A stretch of 64,000 nucleotides of DNA from Volvox africanus (Eukaryota; Chlorophyta; Chlorophyceae; Chlamydomonadales; Volvocaceae): the NCBI GenBank assembly GCA_030268105.1, contig BSDZ01000103.1, positions 996,501-1,060,500 of the forward strand, written 5' to 3'. How positions within the stretch are numbered: the first letter of the stretch is position 1; every line of letters begins with the position of its first letter. The notes beneath the pieces were generated by a model, which did not search any database, had not been told where the DNA came from, and saw only the letters and a list, made by a program, of their open reading frames with translations. Position numbers and translations under genes: made by a program. Shown here one piece after another: positions 6,101-8,200 of the stretch.

Positions 6101-8200
6101 TGCAGCAGTTATGGTGCATTTTATTCCATTCAACATCCCTCTCTCCCTCCCATCCTCTCCTCCCCTCCTCCCATCCCTCTCAGGCGCCGACACACTTCTT
6201 GGGCCAGAGATGCGCTCCACCGGTGAGGTCATGGGTATCGACAAGGAGTTCTCCGCAGCCTTCGCCAAGGCCCAGATTGCCGCCGGTCAGCGGCTTCCTA
6301 AGACTGGCAAGGTCTTCATCTCCATGGCCGACAAATACAAGCCCGACATCATCGCGGTGGCCAGGGACCTGGGCAACCTGGGCTTCGGACTCGTTGCTAC
6401 AAGTGAGTCGGTTGGTCGTGAGGTTACGCATACATTATTTACGCATAACACATCTGGTTATGTTATTAGGATATTTCATATAGTACAAGAGATCCGTATC
6501 ACTTTTCATTATGGCTTTCTCTGAGCGATGTCTGTAAAGATTCTGCTCCTTTAAAAATAATAGAAAATAGTCATAAAAAACCAGTGAAACCAGCTATAGA
6601 TTTCTGGTCGCCATATTTTATTGATGAATATAATATCGTTGATAAAAATATAAGTTCACTAACTGTTAATGCCGGTGATGCCATAATATTTGATTCAAAA
6701 TTATGGCATGGAAGCCATGAGAATTATTCTCGTAAAGACAGGTTTGCATATGTTACAAGGTGGGCGATACAAGGAAAAGGTTTTCCTGGAATTCCAGAAA
6801 TCAAACCAACTTGTTTCGGTATGTTTAATTGCGGAGAATTAACTAATCAAATATTAAAAAGATCATTATCATTACTTGATATAAAGCTACTGGAAAAAGT
6901 AGTAAATAAAGAAACCCTAATAGGGTTATGGATAGATGTTTTAACTGTAAATTCCAATCTTTGGAGGATTAATAACGTTTTAGCGATTGAAGACTTAAAG
7001 AAATTAAACATATATATGTATGATATCTGAATATAAGCTAAAAACGGATGTAATAGCAGCTAGTATATTGCATGATATTGTTGAAGATACAGAAGTTACT
7101 GTAGAGATGATACAGGGCACTTTTGGGAATAGAATAGCAGAAATGGTTGACAAAAGTGTTAAACATTCTAAAACTCTTTTTGTCATTGCCGGGAGTAATG
7201 TTTGAGGAAAATATAACAGTATCTTTTGGAGCTAATTTTATGGAGGAGTGAACTCTATTAGCCATTTTAGCAGTTGCTGCCATTAATTCACCCTGGCAAC
7301 CGGTTGCTATAATTAGCAGTTCTTCTCTTTTGTAATTTCCTATGGACCTTTCATCTATTAAAGGTGCAATATCATTTAAGTATCCGGTTACATACATAAA
7401 TATATATGTACATACACATATGTATATGTATATATACATGTATATATATATACACTTATATGTATTGTGTGTGTATGTGGTTGGAAATGTATACATCTCT
7501 CTACCCAGCGCTTCCTACCCAGCGCCTCATACCCATAGTGACATTCCTCACATTCCTCACATTCCTCCTCTTCCCCAACCCCCTCGTCCATGCACAGCCG
7601 GTACGGCCACGGCACTGCGTGCCGCCGGTGTTCCCTGCGAGCAAGTGTTCAAGATTCAGGAGGGTCGACCTAATCCCGCAGATTTGATGAAGAACGGGGA
7701 GGTCTCCCTAGTCATGATGACGTCAAGGTGGGGCCACTGGGCAGTATTCTTTCACCCGATACAAATCCCATATCCCATATCATATGAAAACAAGTATATA
7801 TATATATCGTGTTTTCTTGGTATTTTTCCTAATCGTTAAATATTTAAGAACTTTTATCCTGGCATCTTTGGGTGTTTCTGTAAATATATGAAGTGAAGCT
7901 GACCAAATTACCAATCTCCCAATTATATCATTAATATAATGTATTATTTGTAGCATCATCATTAACGAAGTATCTGCTTTGCCCTTGCCCGCGCTTTGAG
8001 CCCACAGTGGTGACCAGGCCGACCTGCGTGATGGCAAGGAGCTTCGCCGCCTGGCGCTGTCGCTGTCCATCCCCACCGTCACCACTGTGGCGGGCGCTCG
8101 CGCCACCGCTGCGGCGCTGCGGGCCATGCGCGCGGGGCCACTTGTGCAAATCCCTCTCCAGGACTTTTTCCCCAACTACTACGACGACTCGCTCGAGTAA
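158..8200 (+). CDS. CARB: Carbamoyl-phosphate synthase large chain, 3' part (15 exons)
   Basis: Large subunit of glutamine-dependent carbamoyl-phosphate synthase. It makes carbamoyl phosphate from bicarbonate, ATP and ammonia delivered by the small subunit, for arginine and pyrimidine synthesis; in plants and algae it acts in the chloroplast. Exons: 158-223, 542-704, 794-1008, 1507-1702, 2357-2603, 3177-3274, 3685-3819, 3916-4159, 4346-4570, 5107-5220, 5430-5497, 5918-6010, 6184-6402, 7598-7727, 8008-8200. All phases agree and give 801 residues. Visible order: end of the first ATP-grasp half (IEMNPRVSRSSALASK), helical oligomerisation domain (about 110-230), second synthetase half (GGGPNRIGQGIEFDYCC near 275-292, RPSYVLGGRAMEI near 430, EANPRASRTVPF near 561-572), and C-terminal MGS-like regulatory domain (about 640-801) with VATTGTATALRAAG. 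Bacterial CarB is about 1,070 residues, so roughly 290 residues lie before the window. The exons look intact. Several introns carry bacterial gene fragments, listed separately. Confidence 0.97.
1883..2019 (+). repeat. Dispersed repeat R137, copy 1
   Basis: About 137 bp in CARB intron 4 that match 32877-33016 in the same orientation with only scattered differences. Both start CATATCCACCTAGCCTCAC and end ATACGACAG. A diverged inverted relative lies at 56955-57047. It has no long open frame. It may be a non-autonomous mobile element or a SINE-like repeat. Confidence 0.85.
2712..2927 (+). other. AT-rich island with a stop-free frame in CARB intron 5
   Basis: This AT-rich stretch has a forward frame open for about 70 codons, ending at TAG 2925-2927. 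The reading looks like protein (for example KVLVENLPNLYQGIKGTE and QQGKVALHFMRLDNSVIV), but I do not recognise the family. There is no ATG context. Its composition resembles the bacterial fragments in later CARB introns, so it may be another one; that is an inference. Confidence 0.35.
4221..4243 (+). repeat. Interstitial telomere-like repeat
   Basis: TTTTAGGG-type units in tandem, ending in TTTTGGG, within CARB intron 8. Similar short degenerate blocks occur near 3365-3380, 15364-15400, 30946-30970, 32181-32196 and 46857-46880. TTTTAGGG is the Chlamydomonas telomere unit. Confidence 0.6.
4870..5052 (-). pseudogene. Fragment of Rpn-family PD-(D/E)XK nuclease (bacterial origin)
   Basis: Read on the minus strand, CARB intron 9 encodes about 60 residues of a bacterial Rpn-family recombination-promoting nuclease (PDDEXK transposase-like). 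Clear segments are GVQIIVEMQIAPTKGFEKRA, then QYYAAKAYSRQLN, then YHNLKEVIFIA. The E-x-Q of the nuclease core (VEMQ) is present. The upstream catalytic Asp region and the rest of the protein are absent, and a stop follows at 4870-4872. The family is known to be abundant in Rickettsiales. This is a dead piece inside an algal intron, not an expressed gene. Confidence 0.88.
6470..7030 (+). pseudogene. Fragment of PhyH-type 2-oxoglutarate/Fe(II) dioxygenase (bacterial-like)
   Basis: An AT-rich frame of about 186 codons inside CARB intron 13. It carries the C-terminal half of a phytanoyl-CoA dioxygenase-like protein: SLWLSLSDVCKDSAPLKIIE followed by NSHKK, then NAGDAIIFDSKLWHGSHEN with the distal metal-binding His, then a downstream Arg (RFAYVTRW) expected to contact 2-oxoglutarate. 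The N-terminal part with the proximal His-x-Asp is missing. The frame is preceded by a stop at 6467-6469. Base composition is far more AT-rich than the flanking exons. The exact subfamily is uncertain. Confidence 0.78.
7020..7180 (+). pseudogene. Fragment of RelA/SpoT HD domain (bacterial origin)
   Basis: About 50 residues of the (p)ppGpp synthetase/hydrolase HD domain: YKLKTDVIAASILHDIVEDT followed by EVTVEMIQGTFGNRIAEMVD. The HD pair sits in ILHDIVEDT, the most conserved segment of the family. The fragment begins where the PhyH-like piece ends and breaks off near 7178-7185, where an RNase J piece starts in the opposite orientation. No start codon and no synthetase part are present. Plastid RSH proteins of algae share this domain, but the AT-rich codons and bacterial neighbours argue for a bacterial donor. 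Confidence 0.78.
7181..7390 (-). pseudogene. Fragment of ribonuclease J (bacterial origin)
   Basis: The minus-strand reading gives about 70 residues of RNase J, a metallo-beta-lactamase/beta-CASP nuclease: REELLIIATGCQGELMAATA, then KMANRVHSSIKLAPKDTVIF, then SSNITPGNDKK. ATGCQGE and SS-x-x-x-PGN are family hallmarks of the beta-CASP/C-terminal metal-site region. Both ends are truncated. It is fused tail to tail with the RelA/SpoT piece. Expression is implausible in this position. Confidence 0.88.
7815..7965 (-). pseudogene. AT-rich minus-strand fragment, possibly RasGEF domain
   Basis: CARB intron 14 holds an AT-rich open minus-strand frame reading INDIIGRLVIWSASLHIF then TETPKDARIKVLKYLTI. 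The spacing of RL-x-x-W, PK-x-R and KVLKYL resembles the helical core of RasGEF (Cdc25-like) domains, some of which occur in intracellular bacteria. The match is short, and I cannot exclude another family. Composition and location match the other bacterial pieces. Confidence 0.4.

Follow-up and report, generated by a model that had tools for sequence, protein, structure and literature searches.

How could fragments of three bacterial genes come to lie end to end inside a single intron of an algal gene? The locus that raises this question is part of a 64-kb stretch (64,000 nucleotides; from here on, the window) of the published assembly of the Thai strain of Volvox africanus, whose 140,993,249 bases in 126 contigs we searched. 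The host gene is CARB, encoding the carbamoyl-phosphate synthase large chain, which starts outside the window. One of its introns holds an island of three internal gene fragments, in the order PhyH-type dioxygenase, SpoT-like HD domain and RNase J, on the plus, plus and minus strands. We consider it probable (about 85%) that these pieces, of the type found in the rickettsial bacterium Candidatus Megaira, were joined when end joining sealed a break in the CARB intron and took up degraded symbiont DNA as filler. The best reading of its class is a complex nuclear integrant of symbiont DNA, of the same type as nuclear mitochondrial (numt), plastid (nupt) and Wolbachia (NUWT) insertions, which end joining would have captured at a time that can be estimated only roughly.

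The island and its host gene

The features of the locus, with DNA identities to the Megaira genome MegNEIS296, are the following:

6184-6402, plus strand: late CARB exon upstream of the island (open reading frame 6084-6521 matches CarB profile 892-970; its spliced join is found in the annotated protein P0037)
6403-7597, plus strand: CARB intron containing the island, with GT-AG ends
6465-7012, plus strand: PhyH-type dioxygenase piece, 98% to MegNEIS296 53680-54227, frame open throughout
7013-7018, no strand: filler at the PhyH/SpoT join, 6 bases assigned to neither donor
7019-7150, plus strand: SpoT/RelA-like HD piece, 93% to MegNEIS296 562534-562403
7148-7150, no strand: microhomology TGA at the SpoT/RNase J join, 3 bases common to both donors
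7148-7389, minus strand: RNase J piece, 88% to MegNEIS296 841001-840760 and 90% to the Erken lake bin
7390-7480, no strand: host TA-rich microsatellite directly to the right of the island, with many other genomic matches (query about 987-1094)
7598-7730, plus strand: CARB exon on the right-hand side of the island, with an approximate 3' end

An initial annotation, made from the letters alone, had placed three bacterial pieces here in this order, and both profile and DNA matches bear it out. The open reading frame 6470-7030 on the plus strand matches Pfam PF05721 (E=3e-12, profile 119-212 of 213), and frame 7008-7205, also on the plus strand, matches TIGR00691 (E=1.8e-11, profile 29-79 of 687), as expected for the RelA/SpoT HD domain proposed there. 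The minus-strand piece matches PF22505 (E=3.2e-19) and positions 271-342 of 549 of an RNase J1 profile, in agreement with its earlier naming. Worked out by hand from match coordinates, the pieces correspond to about codons 104-286 of 322 in the PhyH donor gene, codons 64-108 of a 222-codon SpoT-like open frame and codons 272-352 of 558 in RNase J. All three ranges are internal to the donor genes, so the truncation at both ends had been read correctly. The PhyH-type piece does lie on the plus strand, but it is the middle-to-late part of the gene, without about the last 36 codons, rather than its C-terminal half. The pieces are also AT-rich, as had been noted, with a GC content of 0.322 in the island versus 0.501 in the window. 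A functional horizontal gene transfer was rejected, since all three genes are truncated at both ends and none keeps a complete reading frame.

Judging from the assembly and its annotation, the island is nuclear: CARB exons flank it on both sides, the contig is 2.8 Mb long and the annotated protein spans the intron. The best protein match of the stitched CARB exon stretches is VaNZ11_016323 of V. africanus (87% over the whole approximate query), and the predicted splice join, VATTGTATALRAAG, is present in the annotated CARB protein P0037. Since this protein is continuous over the intron, the island looks passively carried, and it likely does nothing for the alga. A patch that lies in an intron and is spliced out can persist and slowly decay. 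No Rfam family was found at gathering score between 5900 and 8200.

A Megaira-type donor and the joins between the pieces

On the closed MegNEIS296 chromosome, the three donor loci lie at 53.7, 562 and 841 kb, in orientations plus, minus and minus. The rickettsial donor proposed initially can thus be named as Ca. Megaira (Rickettsiaceae), with the pieces matching three loci hundreds of kb apart. The PhyH piece differs from MegNEIS296 at 12 positions, with no gaps. Its nearest protein is a JGI protein (94%), the nearest one with an organism name in the same list is from Ca. Phycorickettsia (72%), and in a tree of 37 rows the piece groups with the MegNEIS296 PhyH with support of 100/95. For RNase J, the nearest proteins among the 18 bacterial loci found are those of the Erken lake bin (93%) and Ca. 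Megaira MegNEIS296 (92%). The initial annotation had also raised an algal nuclear or plastid origin of the pieces; the best named matches are rickettsial.

We then compared the whole Megaira genome with the window and obtained 12 high-scoring segment pairs, against none in six first-order Markov shuffles and one with the reversed genome. This control match (43970-44272, E=3e-16) falls within a proline-rich repeat frame: positions 40707-44591 form an open frame of 1,294 codons, rich in proline and with long SPPPP repeats, that looks cell-wall-protein-like by eye. With identities of 98, 93 and 88% and such low controls, the island is symbiont-derived sequence, and the bacterium itself presumably resided in the alga.

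Searching the island against the algal genome gave seven further places outside the TA microsatellite (best 40 of 147 candidates). We read seven extra loci, six from those places (L002-L006 and L008) and one, L007, from a place matching the microsatellite. In five of them (L004 to L008), between two and six pieces that are far apart in Megaira form a mosaic, the shortest piece being 28 bp; L002 and L003 hold a single Megaira piece each. The case of L007 is instructive, since this locus was chosen for its microsatellite and yet holds a two-piece mosaic.

Within the island, donor alignments run through each join show clean switches. The pieces had been described as joined without spacer, which holds for SpoT/RNase J, where the donors overlap by 3 bases, but not for PhyH/SpoT, where 6 filler bases intervene. 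In total, nine joins with neighbouring pieces at most 6 bases apart were read in the window and in L004, L006, L007 and L008; one join in L004, next to a match of 19 bp (E=0.028), was not used. Six of them are gapless, with 3, 4, 3, 1, 0 and 0 shared bases, and the remaining three carry 6, 3 and 2 filler bases. Gapless joins share a mean of 1.8 bases versus 0.76 expected at random (n=6, P about 0.02), although selection may inflate this difference. Such marks, short microhomology or small filler, are as end joining would give, and the sequences support this mechanism, although a sample of nine joins falls short of proof. Ligation of non-adjacent fragments in mixed orientation, as originally suggested, is likewise backed by the MegNEIS296 positions, the further mosaics and the sharp joins.

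According to this model, an ancestor of V. africanus would likely have carried Megaira, and symbionts that died, lysed or were damaged would have released short DNA that got into the nucleus. There, double-strand breaks may have been sealed by end joining or microhomology-mediated joining with symbiont pieces as filler, sometimes several per break, and the process would have been repeated thousands of times.

One could argue that the pieces entered the CARB intron in separate events. Their unequal identities (98, 93 and 88%) would fit, and insertion at an existing insert would give nested or abutting pieces. Here the pieces do abut, yet no piece interrupts another, and at one join the pieces meet exactly and share microhomology; without a target rule, it would be improbable for new shards to land time after time precisely on the border of an older one. 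We regard sequential insertion as unlikely.

It is very unlikely that the mosaic existed beforehand in the donor, in a Megaira strain or plasmid with the fragments side by side, and entered as one contiguous piece. SpoT-like genes are multi-copy in MegNEIS296 (five chromosome matches beyond the best) and also occur on Megaira plasmids, which points to mobile surroundings and speaks for such an origin. Against it, in none of 121 bacterial loci, 73 of them tiles of the MegNEIS296 chromosome, are any two of the pieces adjacent; in one Rickettsia locus two weak matches to pieces lie about 4.5 kb apart. The RNase J match spans query residues 1-71 in 17 of the 18 bacterial loci. None of the nine matching plasmid records covers 80% of the island, and for the eight of them with a listed best place, this is either PhyH (two Arsenophonus) or SpoT-like (six Megaira), never both. 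Moreover, the other algal loci hold different combinations of pieces, so that this explanation would need as many rearrangements in the donor.

Mosaics of gene fragments are also built by Helitron and Pack-type elements, and such an element could have spread the bacterial fragments. A Jordan-like transposon does lie within the rickettsial island of V. carteri, as described in the available text of PMC4324946. In V. africanus, by contrast, the intron flanks match elsewhere only as the TA microsatellite (best 40 of 147 candidates), no bracketing repeats were found around the island among 5 direct families and 25 of 27 inverted pairs, and the matches of the genome census described below come from many donor positions instead of being copies of the CARB island. 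Transposon capture is therefore highly improbable.

Megaira shards in the window and across the genome

Two further shards were found in the window:

30048-30316, minus strand: second Megaira shard, 93.7% DNA identity to MegNEIS296 771868-772136 (E=8e-113)
54161-54232, minus strand: probable third, short shard, 80.6% DNA identity to MegNEIS296 1109789-1109718 (E=3e-10)

The former (269 bp) is a piece of a 577-codon donor open frame, a candidate Xaa-Pro aminopeptidase-like gene by eye. The open reading frame 29597-30073, a putative gene, takes its last codons and its stop from this shard. The latter is a piece of a 431-codon donor open frame, by eye a candidate transporter, and its match (E=3e-10) is weaker than the one given by the reversed-genome control (E=3e-16). 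Two marginal Megaira matches also occur, at 18460 and 34882.

We then took a census of three 20-kb Megaira tiles against the algal genome. The tiles were not random: one was placed around RNase J (L009), one was chosen for 16S (L094) and one was arbitrary (L075). They gave at least 44, 42 and 41 matches respectively among the best 40 of 59, 44 and 55 candidates. Pooled, these are at least 127 matches at 120 separate sites on 38 contigs, one being the CARB island itself (C100:1003648) and 126 being further ones. By this sample, the CARB island is one instance of a far larger set. Median match length is 96 bp (38-3504), with 99 of the 127 (78%) at 200 bp or less, and median identity is 88%.

Of the 60,000 donor bases sampled, which make up 4% of the donor genome, 18,916 are covered by matches, a single match on contig C36 accounting for 3,511. 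There are about two Megaira matches per kb of donor. Extrapolated to the whole donor, the algal genome would hold about 3,070 fragments, or 0.45 Mb (0.32% of its length). The 3,504-bp C36 match enters the fragment count and the 18,916 covered bases, but not the 0.45 Mb. The two extra shards in the window lead to an estimate of 500-16,000 fragments, compatible but very wide. Genome-wide, the shards likely number in the thousands.

Controls gave few matches. A 20-kb tile of a Torix Rickettsia, centred on the RNase J gene, yielded 12 matches with 69-82% identity, and a 20-kb tile of an unrelated alphaproteobacterium yielded a single one (80% over 113 bp), whereas 13.8 kb of the Erken bin gave at least 40 (best 40 of 44 candidates). 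Pairs of matches at most 5 kb apart in the alga, with donor loci separated by over 2 kb, numbered 13, in 9 clusters, versus 0.57 expected and a maximum of 5 in 500 random placements. The low controls and the excess of close pairs argue that the signal is specific to Megaira and clustered.

A fourth tile, L120, also an arbitrary choice, gave at least 52 matches (best 40 of 127 candidates). It did not enter the scale-up, as 22 of these matches lie on one repeated array on contigs C36 and C69 and others are in multi-copy transposase-like or 23S-like regions. In this array, a match of about 214 bp and about 78% identity to Megaira 1267534-1267744 recurs, mostly every 11 kb, in a way that would fit tandem amplification of a shard. 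Long Megaira matches (3.0-3.5 kb, 90-98%) occur at C36:45842-49345, C14:175311-178556 and C25:424949-427978, the donor region of the last two being, by eye, a candidate 23S rRNA-like one. Besides, four 16S-region matches (231-498 bp, 94-99%; 16S placed by primer motifs) lie on contigs C76, C11, C86 and C91. These matches could mislead 16S screens of V. africanus.

Regarding age, 25 shard alignments against MegNEIS296 show 98, 75 and 229 differences at first, second and third codon positions, and the comparison of the Erken bin with MegNEIS296 shows 195, 99 and 911. In the RNase J piece, which is 12% different from MegNEIS296, 21 of 29 changes fall at third positions (21 of 81 third positions), and a three-way comparison gives 15 private changes to the island, 13 to MegNEIS296 and 8 to the Erken bin. 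We made a two-part fit on 19 of the 25 alignments, leaving out four SpoT-like ones (paralogues) and two with no coding frame. It returned about 3.5% of even decay (bootstrap 1.9-5.7%) on top of some 50% of the divergence seen between strains, from few pieces and one reference pair. This rough estimate suggests that much of the divergence arose in the bacteria before transfer and that the shards would have decayed slightly since.

Several observations weigh against the end-joining explanation or its genome-wide extension. The pieces are unequally distant from MegNEIS296 (2% for PhyH versus 12% for RNase J), a gap that could reflect a recent passage of the accessory PhyH gene between Megaira strains, or else two donors or two separate times of entry. 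The tree of RNase J, from 213 bp, does not resolve the branching. The microhomology excess comes from the six filler-free joins, with three of the nine carrying 2-6 filler bases. Three 16S-region matches of 77-85% identity (C91:803398, C75:875733 and C26:456774) could be organelle-type, and one of them sits in two of the 13 close pairs. Furthermore, the census consists of match positions, whose host flanks are mostly unread. Finally, the island is known from the assembly, and any bacterial sequence in an assembled eukaryote genome invites doubt; the chimera of misjoined bacterial reads that the initial annotation itself had raised is nevertheless hardly credible, given that, in the accessible text on the assembly, 197x PacBio and 166x Illumina data were used and contigs with a bacterial-DNA match were excluded (PMC10291315), that pieces of 28-130 bp from distant loci joined at several sites are unexpected from a long-read assembly, and that the annotated CARB protein spans the intron. 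The same text describes strain 1101-NZ-11 as assembled into 129 gap-free contigs of 141.0 Mbp.

A broader claim is that the genome holds a shredded archive of Megaira: roughly 3,000 or more shards that between them represent perhaps one quarter to one third of the symbiont genome, inserted break by break during a long or repeated symbiosis. We see this claim as evenly poised between true and false. If true, ordinary introns and some reading-frame ends would now be built from symbiont DNA, and the shards would be both a dated record of hosting Megaira and a readout of the DNA ends that repair joins. In practical terms, a rickettsial match in a volvocine genome is not necessarily a sign of contamination or of a living symbiont, and bacterial DNA can find its way into algal gene models.

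Relation to known insertions of symbiont and organelle DNA

Among the titles listed by our literature search, which took in neither subscription papers nor preprints nor supplementary tables, none dealt with Megaira shards in V. africanus or with a genome-wide set in volvocine algae. The closest case is V. carteri f. nagariensis, where Kawafune et al. 2015 report, in the text available to us, a region of about 9 kb with four rickettsial gene pieces, among them 16S beside murB, from hits with E<=1e-50 (PMC4324946); the accessible part of Davison et al. 2022 cites it as partial inserts (PMC9098888). That insertion, EVE scaffold 6, resembles ours in its donor clade (the hydra group, or Megaira), its host genus, its truncated and unlinked pieces and its nuclear contig. 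It differs, as far as the available text goes, in being one region of about 9 kb, whereas V. africanus has 120 sites that are mostly 200 bp or less. The 412-bp 5' 16S piece described there is not among the four largest 16S-region matches of V. africanus (tile L094 positions 8695-9188, 8928-9353, 8976-9398 and 9622-9853), and murB was not searched for.

Regarding the structure of the insertions, there is a likeness with the complex numts and nupts of plants and with mosaic mitochondrial insertions (numins), which, in the accessible text of Portugez et al. 2018, combine several separate donor fragments per site through blunt joins or 1-7 bp of microhomology; their donors are organelles, whereas the V. 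africanus donor is a bacterial symbiont (PMC6215612). Degenerate rickettsial pieces are also found in a mitochondrial genome of the plant lineage. The likeness lies in these degenerate pieces; the genome is mitochondrial and its donors are mostly Holosporaceae-like, with 30 coding regions.

In scale, the insertions resemble the NUWTs of animals. The available texts report more than 600 insertions in several Onchocerca (PMC12693587) and about 1 Mb of symbiont-like nuclear DNA, read as genomic fossils, in Dictyocaulus viviparus (PMC4046930), with some of the hosts having no living symbiont. They differ in their animal hosts, and multi-locus mosaics of pieces of about 100 bp are not described in those parts of the two papers (PMC4046930, PMC12693587). 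The basic process is thus known; to judge by the papers found, what seems new is its scale and a shard size of about 100 bp, in an alga that is not phagotrophic. Wolbachia-bearing animals are the best-known case of bulk transfer of symbiont DNA to nuclei, and organelles that of mosaic insertion. V. africanus, a green alga that does not feed on bacteria, offers a second, independent system, which would allow asking how often symbiont DNA arrives in the nucleus, how long symbiosis lasted in lineages that may since have become symbiont-free, and how end joining builds patches of several parts.

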